The position numbers and the translations under genes are program-made. Under the pieces are notes generated by a model, which searched no databases, had not been told where the DNA came from, and was given only the letters and a program-made list of their open reading frames with translations. Positions 24,359 to 32,969 of a DNA stretch of 39,239 bases are shown here, one piece after another. The stretch comes from an uncultured cyanobacterium (GTDB taxonomy: Bacteria; Cyanobacteriota; Cyanobacteriia; PCC-6307; Cyanobiaceae). The stretch covers positions 1 to 39,239 of the forward strand of contig CAIJRN010000001.1 of NCBI GenBank assembly GCA_903823115.1. Direction: 5' to 3'. Within the stretch, counting starts at the first letter, position 1; each line of letters begins with the position of its first letter.

Positions 24359-26575
24359 TCAGCCGGGGCGGCGGCTCCGCAGCAGGCTGTGGCGCAGGGG
24401 TTGGGGCAGGCGGATCCCCTGATACCGGCTGAACAGGGCCTGCAGCTTGTCGATGACCGCGTTCCCCAGCTGGCGGCTCAGCAACTGCCGGTAGTCGGCC
24501 TCCGCCCCGAACCAGCGCCGCAGCAGGGATGGGTCCAACGGCAGGCCCAGGCCTTCCTGCCAGCTCTGGCACTCCACCAGCCAGCCCCGTTGCTCCAGCA
24601 GGGTCTGCACCGGCGCTGGCCCCGGTCCCTGCGCCTTCAGCCAGTCCCGCTCCAGGACCTGGGCCTGGATCAGGGCGTCGGCCAGCTCCGCCGGCGCGGC
24701 CAAGTCGCTGTCATGGGCCAGCAGGCTGCCCACAGGGCCAAGAAGCGGTTCGCTGAACAGCAGCCTGGCGTGGGCCGCCGGGGCCGCCAGGCCGGTGAGA
24801 CTCTCGATGGCCGTGTCCAGGTGGGCGTCGCTGCAGCGCCGCCAGGGCTGGCGGGCGGCCAGCCAGTCGAACTGCCAGCCGACCTCCAGTTGGTCGGCCA
24901 GGGCCGTGGGCTGGTCGCCGGGCAGCATCAGCAGCCGGGGCCGGCGCAGCTGGTCCAGCAGTTGCAGCTGGGCCTGGAGCCGTTCCTGATCCGCCGTGGC
25001 CGCCAGGGTGATCACCACGTCGCCTTCGCTGGCGGCCTGCAGCGGGTCCAGAGCCCAGAGCAGGGAGCGGGCTTCCAGCACCAGCACCCGGTCCAGGCGC
25101 CCGATCGGGGCGTCCTGCCAGAAACGCTGGCGCAGACGGTCGAGCCGCTCCCCTTCGGCGGCGGCCTGGCGCTGCAGCCAGCGGGCCAGCACCGGGTCGT
25201 CGGGACTGCTGCTCAGCAGCTCCGGCTGGTCGTTTTCGGTTTCGGCCGCGGCGGCCAGCTGGGCGGCCCGGCGCTGCTGCAGGCGCTGGCGCAGGGCGCC
25301 TTCCCAGCCCAGCGGGCCGGGCTGCCAGAAGACTTCCCCCTGCAGGGCGCTGGGCAGATATTGCTGGGCCACCCAGTGCTCGGCGTAGGCATGGGGATAG
25401 CGATAGCCGACGCCATCGCCGAAGGCCTTGCCATCGCGGCTGGCATCCCGCAGGTGGGAGGGCACCTGCTGCTTCTGGGCTTCGCGGACGGTCTTGATGG
25501 CATCGAAGAGCCCCAGGCTGCTGTTGCTTTTCTCACTGCCGGCCAGGTAGAGAGCGGCATGGGCGAGCGGATAGAGCCCTTCAGGCAGGCCGATCCGGTC
25601 GAAGGCGGCCGCACAGGCCTCGACCACCACCATCGCCTGGGGATCGGCCAGGCCGATGTCCTCGCCGGCGGAGATCAGCAGCCGCCTGAGGATGAAGCGG
25701 GGGTTTTCGCCCGCTTCCAGCATCCGGGCCAGCCAGAACAGGGTGGCGTCGGCATCGGAACCGCGGATCGACTTGATGAAGGCGCTGATCGTGTCGAAGT
25801 GGGCATCGCCCTGCTTGTCGTAGAGCACGGCCCGCTGCTGGATCGATTCCTCAGCGATCGCCAGGTCGATCACCACCTCGCCCGCGTCGTTGACGGGCGT
25901 GGTCTCCACCGCCAGTTCCAGGGCGTTGAGCAGGCTGCGGGCATCGCCGCCGGCCACGTTGAGCAGGTGGTCGGCGGCCTCCGGCAGGATCCGCACCTGG
26001 CGCTGGCCGTAGCCGTGCTCCGGATCGCTCAGGGCCCGGTCGATCAGCTGGCGCAGATCTGCGGCTTCCAGAGGTTGCAACCGGAACAACCTGGCCCGGC
26101 TCACCAGGGCCTTGTTGACCTCGAAGTAGGGGTTCTCGGTGGTGGCGCCGATCAGGGTGAGGGTGCCGTCCTCCACCCAGGGCAGCAGGGCATCCTGCTG
26201 GGCGGCGTTGAAGCGGTGCACCTCATCGATGAACAGGATGGTGCGCAGGCCGTGGTGCTCCAGGCGCTCGCGGGCGGCGTCCACCTCGCTGCGCAGATCC
26301 TTGACTCCCGCCAGCACGGCGTTGAGGCTGCGAAAGGAGGCGCGGGTGCTGCCGGCGATGATCCGCGCCAGGGTGGTTTTCCCCGTTCCCGGCGGGCCGT
26401 GCAGGATCAGATTGCCGACCCGATCGGCGGCGATGGCGCGGCGCAGCAGCCGGCCGGGACCGAGGATCGCCGCCTGGCCGACGAAGTCGTCGAGGCTGCG
26501 GGGCCGCAGCCGATCTGCCAGCGGTGCGATTCGGCTCAGGGTCTGCTCCCGGCGGTGGCTGAACAGATCGCTCAA
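24359..26575 (-). CDS. rarA: RarA (MgsA) AAA+ ATPase fused to a methyltransferase-like domain
   Basis: The 738-residue protein has two parts. Residues 1 to about 430 are RarA/MgsA, the AAA+ clamp-loader-like ATPase that works at stalled replication forks: Walker A HGPPGTGKTTLAR (60-70), Walker B LFIDEVHRFN (about 114-123), sensor GATTENPYFEVN, GGDARSLLNALE, and the C-terminal YRYPHAYAEHWVAQQYLP block. Residues about 450-738 are an added domain with a degenerate class I SAM-methyltransferase look (DRVLVLEARSLLWALDPL and VVITLAATADQERLQAQL). It lacks a clear GxGxG loop, so it may be inactive. This fusion is known in cyanobacteria but its role is not. The start is TTG at 26575. Confidence 0.9.
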   Translation of the reverse strand: MSDLFSHRREQTLSRIAPLADRLRPRSLDDFVGQAAILGPGRLLRRAIAADRVGNLILHGPPGTGKTTLARIIAGSTRASFRSLNAVLAGVKDLRSEVDAARERLEHHGLRTILFIDEVHRFNAAQQDALLPWVEDGTLTLIGATTENPYFEVNKALVSRARLFRLQPLEAADLRQLIDRALSDPEHGYGQRQVRILPEAADHLLNVAGGDARSLLNALELAVETTPVNDAGEVVIDLAIAEESIQQRAVLYDKQGDAHFDTISAFIKSIRGSDADATLFWLARMLEAGENPRFILRRLLISAGEDIGLADPQAMVVVEACAAAFDRIGLPEGLYPLAHAALYLAGSEKSNSSLGLFDAIKTVREAQKQQVPSHLRDASRDGKAFGDGVGYRYPHAYAEHWVAQQYLPSALQGEVFWQPGPLGWEGALRQRLQQRRAAQLAAAAETENDQPELLSSSPDDPVLARWLQRQAAAEGERLDRLRQRFWQDAPIGRLDRVLVLEARSLLWALDPLQAASEGDVVITLAATADQERLQAQLQLLDQLRRPRLLMLPGDQPTALADQLEVGWQFDWLAARQPWRRCSDAHLDTAIESLTGLAAPAAHARLLFSEPLLGPVGSLLAHDSDLAAPAELADALIQAQVLERDWLKAQGPGPAPVQTLLEQRGWLVECQSWQEGLGLPLDPSLLRRWFGAEADYRQLLSRQLGNAVIDKLQALFSRYQGIRLPQPLRHSLLRSRRPG

Positions 26576-26672
26576 GGTGGGGGGCCGGAGGGCAGGGTGG
26601 GTCGCTGGCGCCCAGCGTGGGCTTGCGGCCCATGGCCATCATCAGCGTCCGTCCCCAGGGCTGGTTCCGGCC

Positions 26673-27106
26673 TCAGCGCCTGGCGGCGTCAGTGTCCCTG
26701 GGGTGGGACTCAACAGGCAGACCGAAGCGCAGCAGATCGAAGCCGCTGAACAGCAAGCTGATCCCCACGAGCAATCCGATCACCGAGAGCTGGCCCGCCG
26801 GGTGCATGGTGAGGATCAGCAGGCCCTCCGCCAGGAACACGATCCCCAGGGCAACGGCCAGCGCCTTGATCTGCAGGGCCGCCGGCACCAGGCCGGCTTT
26901 GAATTGGATGAGCATCCAGCCGCCTGCCAGCAGAAACAGGGTGGCGATTACCAGCCGCCCGAAAGCGTGCCAGCGGCTGAGCCCCCGGGCGCGGCTGAGT
27001 CGGCCTGGGTGAGTCCCCGCAGCCGCGAGAGTTCGGCGGCCTGGGGATCGGGGGGGACGGCATCCAGCGGCGGCGGGATGGTCCTGGGGGCGGTGTCGGG
27101 GGCCAT
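26673..27106 (-). pseudogene. HdeD/DUF308-like membrane protein gene with a frameshift
   Basis: The C-terminal part, ending at TGA 26673-26675, is a membrane protein with three helices in the HdeD/DUF308 style: FGRLVIATLFLLAGGWML, ALAVALGIVFLAEGLLIL and SVIGLLVGISLLFSGFDLLR. Its frame has no usable start upstream of an ATG inside the first helix. The other frame begins at ATG 27106 with MAPDTAPRTIPPPL and runs through ELSRLRGLTQAD before shifting out near 26999-27001. Adding one base there joins LTQAD to LSRARGLSRWHAFGR without a break. The joined product would be about 145 residues. A run of seven G at 27050-27057 is a second possible site of the shift. This may be a true mutation or a sequence error. 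Confidence 0.6.
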
Positions 27107-27278
27107 GGCGATGGCGGGGCGACCTCAGCTCCAGGGTGGGAAGCCAGGCGTTAGGGCGCCCCGTCTCGTCATCGGTCGATACAGCCCCGCATGGACCTTG
27201 ACTGGACCGGGCGCGGAGCGTCACACCCTGCCACCGGGGGTGGATGCCATCATCGGGCCCACCGGCCATGGCGCCCCC

Positions 27279-28412
27279 TTGCGATTGCACGCCCCAGCGC
27301 TCAGGGCCACCTGGCCAGGCCGGAACGGCTCCAGGGCCGTAGGCGCTGCGATCGGCACCTCGCTTGGCCTGCTGCTCACCGGCTGTACGGCGCCGAAGGC
27401 CCCGCCGGCTCGGATCCTGCCCGTGCGGGTGGAACCGGTGGCGCTCGGCTCCTTCAGCGACAGCATCGAGACGATGAGCACCCTGGAGTCGCTGAAGGAG
27501 GTGGCTCTGGCGGCCCAGGCCAGTGGCCGTATCCAGCGCCTGCTGGTGCAGCAGGGAGACCGGGTGCGCCAGGGGCAGTTGCTGTTGGTGCTGGATCAGA
27601 CCCAGAGCCGGGCCGAGGTGGCGCGGCTCGAGGCGGAGGTCGAGACCAACCGGCTCAACTTCCAGCGCTACGACTACCTGGTGAAACAGGGCGCCGCCAG
27701 TGCCTTCCAGCGTGATGAGTTCCGCCAGCGCTACCTCTCCTCCCGGCAGGAGCTGATTGCCCGCCGCGCCGATCTGGCCTTCCGCGATCTGCGGGCACCG
27801 ATCGGCGGCATCGTCGGCGATCTGTCGGTGAAACAGGGGGATGTGATTCAGGCCGGTGCACCGTTCACCAGCCTGATCCGCAACGACCGCCTGCTGGCCC
27901 GGGTGGAGGTGCCGGCTCTGTATGCCCCGCGCCTGCGGCTGGGACAGCCGGTGATCCTGATGGACCCGGCCAGCAACCGACCGTTGGCCCGGGCGCCGCT
28001 GAGCTCGATCGATCCGGGGGTGGTGCCCGGCAGCCAGTCGCTGCTGGCCAAGGCCGAGTTCGACAACGCCAGCCAGCGCCTGCGCAATGGGCTGCGCACG
28101 CGGACGCGGCTGATCCTCGATGACAGTCGCCGGGCCTCGGTGCCGTTCACCGCCGTCACCCAGATCTCGGGTCAGAGTTTTGTCTATCGGGTCGGCAGCC
28201 TGGCGGGCCTGCGGGAGCGCCCTGGCCAGGCTGATCTTGCCGCTGCCGCCAGGCTTCCATCGGGCAGCCGCTTCGCCCTGCAGACGCCGGTGCGGCTGGG
28301 CCCCTTGCAGCACAACCGCTATCCGGTGCTGGCGGGTCTCAACCCTGGCGATCCGGTGATCGTCGCCAATCTGCTCAGCCTGCGTCATGGCCTGCCGGTG
28401 CAGGTTCGATGA
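27279..28412 (+). CDS. RND efflux periplasmic adaptor (MFP) lipoprotein, first of two
   Basis: From TTG 27279 the 377-residue protein begins with a lipoprotein signal: basic region WPGRNGSRAVG, hydrophobic core, lipobox LLTGC with Cys36. It then shows the adaptor fold: barrel-sandwich half with ASGRIQRLLVQQGDRVRQGQ, a helical hairpin rich in Arg/Gln/Glu (EVARLEAEVETNRLNFQRYD), and RAPIGGIVGDLSVKQGDVIQ. A beta-barrel and membrane-proximal domain follow. It would link the inner-membrane RND pump to an outer-membrane channel. Start choice is uncertain: GTG 27240 and TTG 27285 are also in frame. Its stop overlaps the next gene by four bases (ATGA 28409-28412). Confidence 0.85.
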   Translation: MRLHAPALRATWPGRNGSRAVGAAIGTSLGLLLTGCTAPKAPPARILPVRVEPVALGSFSDSIETMSTLESLKEVALAAQASGRIQRLLVQQGDRVRQGQLLLVLDQTQSRAEVARLEAEVETNRLNFQRYDYLVKQGAASAFQRDEFRQRYLSSRQELIARRADLAFRDLRAPIGGIVGDLSVKQGDVIQAGAPFTSLIRNDRLLARVEVPALYAPRLRLGQPVILMDPASNRPLARAPLSSIDPGVVPGSQSLLAKAEFDNASQRLRNGLRTRTRLILDDSRRASVPFTAVTQISGQSFVYRVGSLAGLRERPGQADLAAAARLPSGSRFALQTPVRLGPLQHNRYPVLAGLNPGDPVIVANLLSLRHGLPVQVR

Positions 28413-29671
28413 TCAGTCTCTGGATTGGTCTCGCCAGCGGGGCCCAAGCCCGGATCTCCGGTAACTTGCCTCCGTCACTGATCCGAACCCCTGTGCGCCG
28501 GCCGGCTGCCCAGCCCCGCTCTCTCGATCCAGCACCAAGGCCGTGGCCGTGGTTGGCCTGCCTTCCCCTGGTGGGGCTTCTGGGCGGTTGTGGTGGCGAG
28601 CCCCCCAAGGCCCAGCAACCGATGAGCGTGCAGGCTGTGACCGTCTCTCCCGGTCGCTTTGCGCCGGGCATTGATGTGGTCAGCCGCATCCAGTCCACCA
28701 GCAACGTGGTGATGCGGCCCGAGGCCGATGGCCGGGTGGTGCGCATCCTGGCCAGCCAGGGTCAGCGGGTGAAGACGGGGCAGCCGATCCTGGTGCTGGA
28801 CAATGTGCAGGAGGCGGCCAACCTCGATGCCAGCCGCTCGGAGGCGATCAAGGATCGCGCCAATGCCCTGCGCTATATCTTCCTCAACGACCAGGGTGCG
28901 GTCTCCACCAAGGACCGCGATTACTACGTGACCCAGGCGCTGCAGAGCCGTGATCGGGTCCGATCCAGTGCCGCCACCCTGGGGTACAAGTTCGTCACCG
29001 CCCCGATCGACGGCATCCTCGGCAACCTCGACACCGTCAAGCTGGGCGATTTCGTGCAGAAGGGCCAGTCCATCACCGGGATCGTCAACAACAGCATGCT
29101 CTGGACCCTGATGGATGTGCCTGCCACCCAGGCTGGCCAGGTCCGCCTCGGGCTGCCGGTGACGGTGCAGAGTCAGGGAAATCCGCCGGTGCAGGGGGTG
29201 GGCCGGGTTGTGTTCATCTCCCCCTATTACGGCGAGAACGATGACAAGTCTTCCCCGAACACGGTGTTGGTCAAGGCCGTGTTCCCCAACCTCAGCGGCG
29301 AGCTGAAAACGGGCCAATTCGTCAAAAATCGCATCATCACCGGCCTCTCTGAAGAGTTGGCCGTTCCTGCCCAGGCGGTGCAGATGAAGGCTTCCCAGTC
29401 CTTCGTCTTCAAGCTCTATCCGCTGCGCCAGGTGCTGGCCAAGATCAAGGCTTCCACCCAGGTGCTGCCGGCCCAGAAGCAGGCCCTCGAGCAGTTGCCG
29501 GGCAGCACACCGATCGCCGTGCAGGTGCCGGTGCGGCTCGGCCCGATGCAGGGCAATGCCTTCCCGGTGCTGGAGGGGCTGAGCAAGGGGGATCAGGTGG
29601 TGGTCAGCAACACCGCCCTGCTGCGCTCCGGGATTCCCGTCAAGGTGGCCGCCAGCGGCCCCAGCAACTGA
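28409..29671 (+). CDS. RND efflux periplasmic adaptor (MFP) lipoprotein, second of two
   Basis: The 420-residue protein is a second membrane-fusion adaptor, clearly different from the first. It has lipobox VGLLGGC (Cys61), the lipoyl-like MRPEADGRVVRILASQGQRV, a short helical hairpin (SEAIKDRANALRYIFLNDQG), TAPIDGILGNLDTVKLGDFV, and a barrel region with SGELKTGQFVKNRI. The ATG at 28409 overlaps the preceding stop, which suggests coupling, but would place 50 residues before the hydrophobic core. A GTG at 28493 gives a normal lipoprotein signal (RRPAAQPRSLDP then the core, Cys33) and may be the true start. It is followed after seven bases by the pump gene. Confidence 0.87.
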   Translation: MISLWIGLASGAQARISGNLPPSLIRTPVRRPAAQPRSLDPAPRPWPWLACLPLVGLLGGCGGEPPKAQQPMSVQAVTVSPGRFAPGIDVVSRIQSTSNVVMRPEADGRVVRILASQGQRVKTGQPILVLDNVQEAANLDASRSEAIKDRANALRYIFLNDQGAVSTKDRDYYVTQALQSRDRVRSSAATLGYKFVTAPIDGILGNLDTVKLGDFVQKGQSITGIVNNSMLWTLMDVPATQAGQVRLGLPVTVQSQGNPPVQGVGRVVFISPYYGENDDKSSPNTVLVKAVFPNLSGELKTGQFVKNRIITGLSEELAVPAQAVQMKASQSFVFKLYPLRQVLAKIKASTQVLPAQKQALEQLPGSTPIAVQVPVRLGPMQGNAFPVLEGLSKGDQVVVSNTALLRSGIPVKVAASGPSN

Positions 29672-29678
29672 GGCCACC

Positions 29679-32600
29679 ATGTCGCTTTCCGATAATTTCA
29701 TCAAGCGGCCGGTCTTGACCACCGTCTGCAGCATCCTGATCGTGCTGGTGGGGCTGATCGCGATCCCCAGCTTGTCGATCGAAAACCTGCCGAACATCGC
29801 GCCACCGCTGATTCAGGTGACGGCCAACTACGGCGGCGCCAACTCCCTGGTGACCGAGCAGGCTGTCACCAATCCGATTGAGCAGCAGATCAACGGAGTG
29901 CCAGGGGCAAACTATATTTCGTCTACCAGTAATATGACTGGTACGAGTGTGATATCGGTGTATTTCAACGAAGATACCGATATCAATATTGACCAGGTGA
30001 ACGTGCAGAACCGCGTGTCACTGGCCATGCCGCAGTTGCCCCAGCAAGTGCAGGCAACGGGTGTGTCGGTGACCCAGAGCACCCCGTCGATCCTGCTGGC
30101 TTATCAGGTTTCATCGACCAAAGGCCAATTTGACTCTGCCTATCTCAATGGCCTGATCTACGAGAATCTTTATTATCAACTGGGTCGGGTTCCTGGGGTT
30201 GCCAATGTCAGTCTGCTGGGGGGCAGTAATCCGGCTTTCTGGTTGTTCATTGACCCGAACAAGCTCACATCCAACGGTCTCACGGCTGATCAGGTGGTTG
30301 CGGCAGTCAAGAGTCAGAACAGCGTGGCGGTCGGCGGCATCGTCGGCGGTCCACCTTCTGGTGGCGATCAGCAGTTTGCTTATCCGATTCTGGTCCAGAA
30401 CAATGGCAATCTGATTTCCATCGACGATCTCAATAACCTCATCGTCGGACGATCGCCGATGGGCAATTTGCTGCGGCTCAAGGATGTGGGCCAGGCGATC
30501 TACGGCTACAACAGCTTTGCCCAGGCGGCTGTCAGCAAGGAGGGATCACCTGCTCTCACCGTTGCCGTTTTTCAGACACCGGAAAGCAACGCTCTGGATG
30601 TTTCCGAAGCGGTGGTCAAGGTGATGAACCAGTTCAGCCAGACCGTGCCGCCCGGTGTGACGGTCAGCGAGATCTACAACATCGGCCAGTTCATTGAATC
30701 CGCCGTTGAGGGCGTCGTCGATGCCCTGGGCCTGGCGATCGTGCTGGTGCTGCTGATCCTCTATCTCTTCCTGCAGGACTGGCGCGCCACGGTGATACCG
30801 AGCCTGGCCATCCCAATTTCCCTGGTCGGCACCTTCGCCTTCATCAAGGCCTTCGGTTTCTCCATCAATCAGCTCACCTTGCTCGGTCTGGTGTTGGCGA
30901 CCGGCCTTGTGGTCGATGACGCCATCGTGGTGATTGAAGCGGTGTCGAAGAATCTCGAGCGCGGCATGCGCCCTCGCCAGGCAGCGCTGGACTGCATGGG
31001 TGAACTGATCGGTGCCTTGATCGCCACGGCTCTGGTCCTGATGGCGGTGTTTGTGCCGGTGGCTTTCTATCCAGGCAGCATCGGCATCATTTATCGCCAG
31101 TTCGCCTTGACGATCGCTTTCTCGATCGCGATTTCTGCCTTCAACGCCGTCACCTTCTCGCCGATGCTCTCGGCCCTGTTGCTCCGGAACGAGAAGGCCA
31201 AGCCACCGGGACGGCTGCTCGGCAGCATCGCCGGCCTGCTGGTCGGCCTGGCCTTCGGCCGCTTCAGCGTGGCCTCCTTCGGACCGATCGCCTGGGTTGT
31301 CGGTGTGGTGCTGGGGGTGCTGGCCGGCGCCAATCTGGGCTGGATCTTTGATCAGTTCAATCTCTTCTTTGCCCGTGTGGAGAAGGGCTATGCCGCTCTG
31401 GTGGAGCGGCTGATCCGCAGCAGGCGCCTGATCATGGCCGGCCTTGCCGGGGGCATCGTCCTCACCGTGCTGGCTTTCGGCGCCCTGCCCTCGGCCTTCA
31501 TCCCGGAGGAGGATCAGGGCTATGGCCTCGGCATCTTCCAGCTTCAGAACGGTGCCTCCCTGAGTCAGACCCAGAAGATGGGCCAGGAGATCGCCAAGGT
31601 GCTCAATGAGGAGCACGAGATCATCGCCGGCTCCGTGATCAGTGGTTACGGCTTCAACGGCTCCAGTCCCGATCAGGGGGTTTTCTTCTACGGCTTCAAG
31701 CCGCTGGAGGAGCGCAAGGGCGCGGATCAGAAGGCGCCCGCCATTGTCGGTCGCCTCAACGCCAAGCTCAAAAACCTGAGCAGCGGCCTGGCAGTGGCTG
31801 CTCAGCCACCGGCCGTGCCCGGTTTTTCCAGCCAGGGGGGCTTCTACTTCCAGTTCAACGATCTCAGCAACGGCGCCTATTCGTTCAACGAACTTGATGA
31901 TCTTGCCAACAAGCTGGTGACCACCGGCAAGGCCAGTGGCGCTTTCGGATCCCTTTACACCCAGTTCATTCCCAGTGCACCGGCTGTTGGTCTCAAGGTG
32001 GATCGCTCGATCATGGGAGCCCTCGATATTGATTTCCAGCAGGCGATGAATACGATTGCGGTTCTGGCGGGCGGCAATTATTCTGGGCTCACTTATGAAA
32101 GCGGCCAGGTTCGAAATATTTATGTGCAGGCCCAGGCTGCCAACCGCAACAAGATTCAGGACATCCTCAGCTTCTACGTTCGGAATCGGCAGGGTAAAAT
32201 GGTGCAGGTATCGCAATTTGCCGATAGTCAACTCAGTAGTGCCCCGCCGATCATCAGCCACTACAACCTCTATCGCACGATTCTGGTGCAGGGCGTAGAG
32301 GCCGCCGGCAAGAGTTCCGGTCAGGCCCTAGCCAAGATCCAGGCGGTGTTTCAGCAGCTCGATTTCAATAACATCGGCTATGCCTTCACCGGCCTGGCGG
32401 CCCTGCAGTTGTCGGCTGGCAACGCCACCGTCCTGGTGTTCGGCCTGGGGGTGTTGGTGGTGTATCTGGTGCTTTCGGCCCAGTACGAGAGCTATGTCAC
32501 GCCGGTGATCATCCTGATGACCGTGCCTCTGGCCATGCTCGGGGCCCTGGCCTTCCTGGCCCTGCGCTCGATCGACCTCAACATTTATGCCCAGGTGGGG

Positions 32601-32969
32601 CTGGTCACCCTGATCGGCCTCGCCGCCAAGAACGGCATTCTGATTGTGGAGGTGGCGGAGCAGCACATGCATGCCGGCATGAGTGCCACCCAGGCCGCGA
32701 TTGCTTCAGCCGAGTCGCGCCTGCGGCCGATCCTGATGACGGCGATCGCCGCTCTGGCCGGCTTCCTGCCCCTGGTGGTGGCGAGCACCGCCGGCGCCAA
32801 CAGTCAGCAGTCGCTGGGTACGGTGATTTTTGGCGGGCTGCTGGTGGCCACCGTGCTCTCGCTGGGAGTTGTGCCTCCCTTCTATGTGGTGATCAAACAC
32901 CTGGAGGCCCGTTGGTTCCCCGAGCAGCCTGAAGAGCCTGAGGCCGTGGCCGGAAGCCACGGTTCCTGA
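29679..32969 (+). CDS. RND multidrug efflux pump, HAE1 (AcrB-like) family
   Basis: The 1096-residue inner-membrane pump exports hydrophobic compounds using the proton gradient. It starts MSLSDNFIKRPVLTTVCSIL, the usual RND opening. The TM4 proton-relay pair is Asp413 and Asp414 in GLVVDDAIVVIE, and the TM10 lysine is Lys984 in GLAAKNGILIVEVAE (Asp407, Asp408 and Lys940 in AcrB). Two large periplasmic porter/docking loops are present. About 50 residues longer than AcrB, it carries an extra hydrophobic Gly/Leu/Val-rich stretch between TM6 and TM7 (about residues 509-560). A GAGG ribosome-binding site lies just before ATG 29679. No outer-membrane channel gene is nearby, so a TolC-like protein encoded elsewhere must serve it. 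Confidence 0.94.
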   Translation: MSLSDNFIKRPVLTTVCSILIVLVGLIAIPSLSIENLPNIAPPLIQVTANYGGANSLVTEQAVTNPIEQQINGVPGANYISSTSNMTGTSVISVYFNEDTDINIDQVNVQNRVSLAMPQLPQQVQATGVSVTQSTPSILLAYQVSSTKGQFDSAYLNGLIYENLYYQLGRVPGVANVSLLGGSNPAFWLFIDPNKLTSNGLTADQVVAAVKSQNSVAVGGIVGGPPSGGDQQFAYPILVQNNGNLISIDDLNNLIVGRSPMGNLLRLKDVGQAIYGYNSFAQAAVSKEGSPALTVAVFQTPESNALDVSEAVVKVMNQFSQTVPPGVTVSEIYNIGQFIESAVEGVVDALGLAIVLVLLILYLFLQDWRATVIPSLAIPISLVGTFAFIKAFGFSINQLTLLGLVLATGLVVDDAIVVIEAVSKNLERGMRPRQAALDCMGELIGALIATALVLMAVFVPVAFYPGSIGIIYRQFALTIAFSIAISAFNAVTFSPMLSALLLRNEKAKPPGRLLGSIAGLLVGLAFGRFSVASFGPIAWVVGVVLGVLAGANLGWIFDQFNLFFARVEKGYAALVERLIRSRRLIMAGLAGGIVLTVLAFGALPSAFIPEEDQGYGLGIFQLQNGASLSQTQKMGQEIAKVLNEEHEIIAGSVISGYGFNGSSPDQGVFFYGFKPLEERKGADQKAPAIVGRLNAKLKNLSSGLAVAAQPPAVPGFSSQGGFYFQFNDLSNGAYSFNELDDLANKLVTTGKASGAFGSLYTQFIPSAPAVGLKVDRSIMGALDIDFQQAMNTIAVLAGGNYSGLTYESGQVRNIYVQAQAANRNKIQDILSFYVRNRQGKMVQVSQFADSQLSSAPPIISHYNLYRTILVQGVEAAGKSSGQALAKIQAVFQQLDFNNIGYAFTGLAALQLSAGNATVLVFGLGVLVVYLVLSAQYESYVTPVIILMTVPLAMLGALAFLALRSIDLNIYAQVGLVTLIGLAAKNGILIVEVAEQHMHAGMSATQAAIASAESRLRPILMTAIAALAGFLPLVVASTAGANSQQSLGTVIFGGLLVATVLSLGVVPPFYVVIKHLEARWFPEQPEEPEAVAGSHGS

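Follow-up and report, generated by a model that had tools for sequence, protein, structure and literature searches.

The window, i.e. the whole 39,239-nucleotide stretch of cyanobacterial DNA that was analysed, encodes a RarA ATPase that carries a class I methyltransferase-like domain, which we regard, with a probability of roughly 60%, as a pseudo-methyltransferase that hangs on a linker, lost its cofactor site near the time of its acquisition and has since been kept for binding rather than for methylation. The second half of the protein probably serves for attachment and has no enzymatic role. Computation gave the fold (as a model), the missing SAM loop, the co-inheritance with the RarA core and the purifying selection; the binding role and its target are what we infer.

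The gene (24359-26575, reverse strand) is complete and consists of a single open frame without interruption, as judged from the list of open reading frames and the translation, with 738 codons, a TTG start and the stop at 24359-24361. In the encoded protein of 738 aa, the RarA/MgsA AAA+ ATPase (residues 1-434) is followed by approximately 300 extra residues. On the reverse strand, Pfam places the AAA ATPase domain (PF00004; residues 56-162, 26090-26410), with the Walker A motif at residues 60-67 and the D117 E118 pair, the AAA lid (AAA_assoc_2; residues 191-271, 25763-26005) and the MgsA_C domain (PF12002; residues 272-434, 25274-25762; 194.5 bits against a cut-off of 27), with which the RarA core ends. 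G60, P61, P62, G63, G65, K66, T67, D117 and E118 all correspond to invariant columns across 58 aligned sequences; for this full-length alignment 63 of 72 domains were prepared, 57 were used together with the window protein, and nine, which include L001, L067 and the long spirochaete forms, were omitted. When the last 313 aa (residues 426-738) were compared alone with Pfam, no family was found at E up to 10. The NCBIfam model NF009883 (PRK13341.1-4), instead, extends over residues 2-736 with 1154.3 bits against a curated cut-off of 668, NF009881 covers residues 3-718 above its own cut-off, which marks the extra residues as a conserved part of the protein, and the gene is the sole full-length match in its own genome. 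The open frame, the Pfam domains and the full-length NCBIfam match bear out the original prediction that RarA and a long extra C-terminal part form one protein.

On the opposite strand, an open frame of 786 aa (24389-26749, forward) runs antisense to almost the entire rarA gene and most likely results from G+C-rich codon use. Adjoining rarA on the forward strand, an efflux set consists of two HlyD-type adaptor genes and, after them, an AcrB-type RND pump (27213-32969, where 27213 is a start picked inside the frame of the HlyD-type gene). Gene neighbours were considered as a clue to the partner of the fused domain and were dropped, because no gene-neighbour family was shared by more than four of 34 fused loci outside the picocyanobacteria in the flanks covered.

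The residues past the RarA core are predicted to have a class I methyltransferase fold. Residues 405-738 were modelled using 49 sequences, with a mean pLDDT of 88.5 and a pTM of 0.85; the alignment of C-terminal parts comprised the window protein and 48 of the 51 candidates, leaving out L001 (identical to the window), L067 (masked letters) and L059 (at a contig end). Structure prediction and a fold search had been put forward with the original prediction as its check, a search giving no methyltransferase similarity being what would speak against it; with a threshold of E 0.001, Foldseek returned 1075 matches of the C-domain model in the PDB, and the 50 of these that were listed include 49 SAM methyltransferases, by title or by the known nature of the protein, and one cyclopropane fatty acid synthase, which shares the fold. 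VIA-align of the predicted C-domain gave a Z of at least 8 for 999 of 1000 Foldseek-ranked chains and, for NodS (3ofj), a Z of 18.0 with an rmsd of 2.5 over 174 aligned residues; the 50 VIA-align matches listed all have the class I methyltransferase fold, some of them presumably so, being placed there from the protein name alone. A profile of the 49 C-terminal parts also matched SAM methyltransferases in the PDB (best E 2.1e-6), from motif I to past strand 5. With Pfam at E up to 1, Methyltransf_12 was found in 13 of the 49 C-terminal parts (best 4.8e-6) and Methyltransf_23 in 12 (best 5.8e-7), and the window member itself matched no Pfam methyltransferase family at this threshold. Since predicted structure and sequence profile agree, the methyltransferase likeness is more than chance, and the proposal of a class I methyltransferase-like second half stands on the model, on both structural comparisons and on the profile.

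The cofactor site was scored in 72 non-redundant complete fused domains, out of 104 fused frames. The three glycines of motif I (GxGxG) are found together in none of the 72 domains; at least two are present in 24 and none in 16, the third glycine being kept in 48. No domain has the acidic residue that follows strand 2 and serves the ribose (0 of 72), and 34 have an acidic residue in b1 (D in 33, E in one). In the window protein, the place of motif I (residues 499-505; 25061-25081, reverse strand) reads VLEARSL in the alignment, with zero of the three glycines remaining. Thus, the lack of a clear SAM-binding loop, already noticed in the window protein, is found in register there and in 71 other fused domains, and the SAM cofactor site is, as judged from the alignment, degraded throughout the 72 domains counted. 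In 20 of them, the window's included, the last two motif I places are occupied by SL, which is itself the criterion by which they were grouped; these 20 are the picocyanobacterial members, which form one branch of the C-domain tree with a stem of length 1.91. Outside the picocyanobacteria, many members share a new consensus of the type LNA[GR][ST]GLLTWEA in the motif I region.

The same profile search also found free-standing relatives, L095 (DAGTGLG; a methyltransferase by Pfam) and L097 (ELGFGTG), that have all three glycines as well as the aspartate after strand 2. As a control, 20 Methyltransf_25 loci of the window's own genome were inspected; the C-domain profile was set aside for this purpose, as it did not align these methyltransferases along the motif, and a loose pattern was used in its place, which found motif I in 14 loci and did not in six. 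When the 14 were read by eye, all three glycines were seen in 12, and D or E after b2 in 11, with N or S in the other three. The glycine count of the control is partly circular, because the loose pattern already demands part of the glycine motif. The lost glycines are, nonetheless, a stronger sign than the strand-2 acid, which is missing in three of the 14 control methyltransferases too.

The RarA fusion family is already catalogued in databases (i.e. the NCBIfam PRK13341 models) and is, we believe, titled ‘RarA/unknown domain fusion protein’ in CDD. The fusion was found in records labelled Cyanobacteria, Spirochaetes, Fibrobacteres, Lentisphaerae, Myxococcales, SAR324, Anaerolineae and others, the labels being taken as given and many of the records being metagenome bins; a record named Nostoc (L030) is among the carriers. 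The fusion, known in cyanobacteria according to the original prediction, is not limited to them, as other phyla carry it. One metagenome bin titled Bifidobacterium breve contains a RarA fusion (L008, 3604-5856) that is 89% identical to that of the window and stands beside it in the tree, so that the label is probably wrong.

The fused form is present in 24 of 28 genomes chosen from fusion-bearing loci, in eight of 146 sampled genomes of the window's phylum and in 11 of 120 genomes of the phylum of a spirochaete (G272), in which three more match by the RarA tail alone. A search with MgsA_C across 145 Cyanobacteriia genomes identified RarA in 86, with frames of at least 700 aa in 69 and shorter ones in 17, at least one of which lies at a contig end (G251); the ten Cyanobacteriia RarAs that were fetched agree with the frame-length call by the C-domain test, eight being fused and two plain. 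No MgsA_C match at E 1e-10 was found in 59 of the 145 genomes, several of them listed as 99-100% complete, and the control Synechococcus elongatus also gave none; RarA seems to be absent from many cyanobacteria. Two other observations concern unusual RarAs. In a genome of the window's phylum, the RarA core occupies residues 397-813 of an 824-residue frame (L110, 313-2784) and is preceded by approximately 400 residues, in which no Pfam family was found at E 0.001; this may be a further RarA fusion or result from a wrongly assigned start. Furthermore, two plain RarAs of the window's class (L130 and L132, family code f9) sit on a branch 2.57 long, where their neighbours are RarAs from other classes of the same phylum; they would be either a different RarA, perhaps a transferred one, or a long-branch error.

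A tree of the RarA core was calculated from 130 of the 161 RarA frames, after removal of cores that were identical or short; this tree and that of the C-domain are quick ones, with no bootstrap, with long-branch warnings and with roots not inferred. All 75 fused cores fall within one group (SH-aLRT 99), which spans several phyla and also contains 16 plain cores. The fused and plain states require a minimum of six changes on the core tree, one of which is a contig end (L058), and the pattern would fit one gain with later losses, a count of changes being unable to separate gain from loss. The distances between cores and those between C-domains correlate with r = 0.89 over 2556 pairs, which are not independent, and this correlation indicates that the RarA core and the C-domain travelled together.

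Besides L058, the plain RarAs nested in the fused group are 11 Prochlorococcus-type rows, which we take to be probably high-light types, L104, L157/L158 and L047. The placement of the Prochlorococcus rows is less sure because of their long branch and odd letter make-up; the stem of these RarAs (L073-L081, L083 and L106) measures 1.91 changes per column, a sign of fast change in the core. No remnant of the C-domain with a positive score was found behind plain rarA in the 10 loci with downstream sequence out of 11 tried, which took in four of the nested Prochlorococcus-type rows (L073, L075, L083 and L106); L158 and L130 gave one negative-score match each, and L058 stops at the contig end. Nor was a C-domain found elsewhere in the genome in G107 and G114 (E 1e-8) or in G290 (E 1e-6). 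As some lineages have RarA without the domain, the latter would be dispensable for the core activity.

How the fused domain is constrained was estimated from synonymous and non-synonymous changes. Among near relatives, dN/dS is approximately 0.04-0.07 in the RarA core and 0.22-0.41 in residues 476-738 (five pairs among four sequences). The domain itself is made of two parts, both on the reverse strand, that evolve at different rates: the linker helix with the former SAM half (residues 461-545, i.e. b1, aA, b2 and aB in the models; 24941-25195), the dN of which is 0.7-5.1 times that of the core over 18 pairs, and the former substrate half (residues 546-738, b3 to b7; 24362-24940), which reaches 3.3-12.4 times over the same number of pairs. 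In every one of the 18 pairs, dN is higher in the second part than in the first, although a few pairs have a sequence in common. In two pairs that include the window protein, the former SAM half, at 0.7 and 1.5 times the core, is about as slow as the core itself, and dN/dS of the fast half is about 0.5-0.6. Purifying selection is concentrated in the former cofactor half. Outside the RarA tail, the conserved positions include W466 (71 of 72), R469 and L498 (both 72 of 72) and P546 (70 of 72), to which E517-G518 of the PEG loop between aA and b2 (25022-25027, reverse strand; E in 67 and G in 70 of 72) and, in the former substrate half, F569 (71/72), E642 (71/72) and W688 (68/72) can be added. 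The split was considered as proof of protein binding and rejected as non-specific: an active methyltransferase, too, would have a conserved first half and a variable second one and would give the same split, so that the latter shows that the slow half is used, not for what, and selection alone favours neither protein nor ligand binding. Binding of a protein or of another ligand would be the likeliest function.

Several other explanations have to be weighed against a domain kept for binding after the loss of its cofactor site. The pocket may have been reshaped rather than lost, in which case the domain would bind a different small molecule (a nucleotide, or SAM held in an unusual manner) and gate RarA as a sensor. 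The slower evolution of the former SAM half in all 18 pairs, the kept PEG loop and the new motif I-region consensus of many members outside the picocyanobacteria would be in line with such a pocket, which we nevertheless consider unlikely: the picocyanobacterial loop has changed again (SL in 20 of 20, by the very criterion of selection) on a long stem branch, and this makes it hard to keep one ligand for all members. Less probable still is a DNA-binding extension that helps RarA to hold gaps or duplex ends. Class I folds are generally known to include nucleic-acid methyltransferases, and RarA binds DNA gaps and duplex ends according to PMC8735627, but the C-domain has a net charge of -2 in the window protein, with a median of -3 and positive values in only 14 of 72 domains, which leaves DNA binding without support from charge.

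That the domain has remained a methyltransferase, which would use a divergent cofactor site and act on a protein or on DNA at the fork, appears improbable. The fold is complete in the model, and the domains that keep two motif I glycines (24/72) or the b1 acid (34/72) make SAM binding possible in some relatives, the third glycine being also widely retained; the full glycine triplet and the strand-2 acid, however, are missing from every domain counted, and the window protein has none of the three glycines, so that methyl transfer would require an unusual grip on the cofactor. The idea that the second half may ‘modify something’ at the fork is disfavoured for the same reason, i.e. the degradation of the cofactor site in all 72 domains. 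Finally, a decaying relic without function, as several RarAs that lack the domain despite lying within the fused group and the dN/dS of the fast half in the two window pairs might suggest, is very improbable in view of the lower dN/dS over residues 476-738 in the five pairs of near relatives, the long frames in 69 of 86 RarA-bearing Cyanobacteriia and the identity of R469 and L498 in all members.

Between the RarA core and the domain, the linker (residues 451-458; 25202-25225, reverse strand) has a pLDDT below 50 in the full-length model, as do residues 452-457 in the model of the 405-738 fragment. The full-length model, built to see whether the domain packs on the RarA core, has a pTM of 0.56 and does not position the two parts relative to each other, so that no packing is proposed. 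Its pLDDT is below 50 also at 250-256 and 370-401 within the RarA core; as parts of the core are themselves poorly predicted, a flexible tether does not follow from the low pTM. A short conserved motif, LT[FYW][SGT]P, also lies in the linker and is found in 29 of 72 relatives from several phyla (29 of 52 outside the picocyanobacteria), with 42 of 72 matching a looser pattern; the window protein reads ELLSSSP at this place. Shuffling each linker gave an expectation of 0.005 against the 29 observed, a contrast that is inflated by relatedness and is exploratory, because the pattern was picked after the linkers had been inspected. The motif could be a docking peptide.

Under the preferred reading of a pseudo-methyltransferase kept for binding, RarA would have gained a class I methyltransferase, in the simplest case by a single event, and the appended domain would have lost its cofactor site at or near the time of the gain. 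The RarA part would act as an ATPase tetramer at gaps and at stalled forks, as in E. coli RarA, with each subunit carrying a domain that hangs by the linker. The slow half (461-545) would form a fixed surface or a reshaped pocket and bind, at the fork, a partner or ligand that is conserved, and the fast half (546-738) would be free or would track a changing partner. In this manner, the domain may tune where or when RarA acts, a role that has been proposed in WRNIP1 for its ubiquitin-binding zinc finger. A more specific version, which is speculative and on balance rather doubtful, is that the former SAM site serves as a sensor pocket or docking face. Jointly with the linker peptide of the E.LT[FY]SP type, it would connect the RarA tetramer with a component of the fork that Cyanobacteria, Spirochaetes and Lentisphaerae have all retained, and would be a bacterial counterpart, of wholly different fold, of the WRNIP1 recruitment module.

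The fusion joins a familiar repair ATPase to an unexplained module. Being kept in distant phyla and missing from some Prochlorococcus that keep the core, this module offers a natural handle on RarA, the binder of the module is probably a RarA partner, and the protein represents a clear example of how an enzyme fold seems to have been converted for binding while attached to a DNA-repair ATPase. In open-licence PMC text, among the matches listed, no paper was found that deals with the second half by its title or the start of its abstract, a search on pseudoenzymes at large gave no paper, and the text of PMC12153180 contains neither ‘fusion’ nor ‘methyltransferase’; within this literature, the role of the second half is indeed undescribed, as had been supposed. 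As far as open-licence PMC searches reach, the fold with a lost cofactor site, the single fused group with nested plain forms and the constraint split are new. PMC8735627 describes E. coli RarA as a tetramer acting at gaps and forks and still regards what the RarA/Mgs1/WRNIP1 family does at the molecular level as undefined.

Among known systems, the NCBIfam models PRK13341.1-2, PRK13341.1-3 and PRK13341.1-4 (NF009881, NF009882 and NF009883), named ‘AAA family ATPase’, have the same full-length architecture as the window protein, but name no function for the second half, to which a fold is assigned here. E. coli RarA/MgsA (3pvs) shares the AAA+ core, the lid and MgsA_C and matches residues 16-432 (E 2.8e-100); its chain, however, has 447 residues, and the match stops at residue 432 of the query. 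Yeast Mgs1 and human WRNIP1 are family kin of RarA and would share the AAA+ core, the lid and MgsA_C. With class I SAM methyltransferases (NodS, 3ofj; the CysG-type 9fce/9fcl; 3ccf), the C-domain has in common the fold and the order of its elements, but it differs from them in being joined to RarA and in lacking the GxGxG loop and the acid after b2. Pseudo-methyltransferases such as METTL14, Mtf1/TFB1M-type factors and the N-domain of anamorsin, chains of which in the PDB match the profile of the C-terminal part weakly (E 0.32-0.49), would resemble it in the way they work, in other protein contexts and with no shared descent evident beyond the fold: in them, the methyltransferase fold is used for binding.
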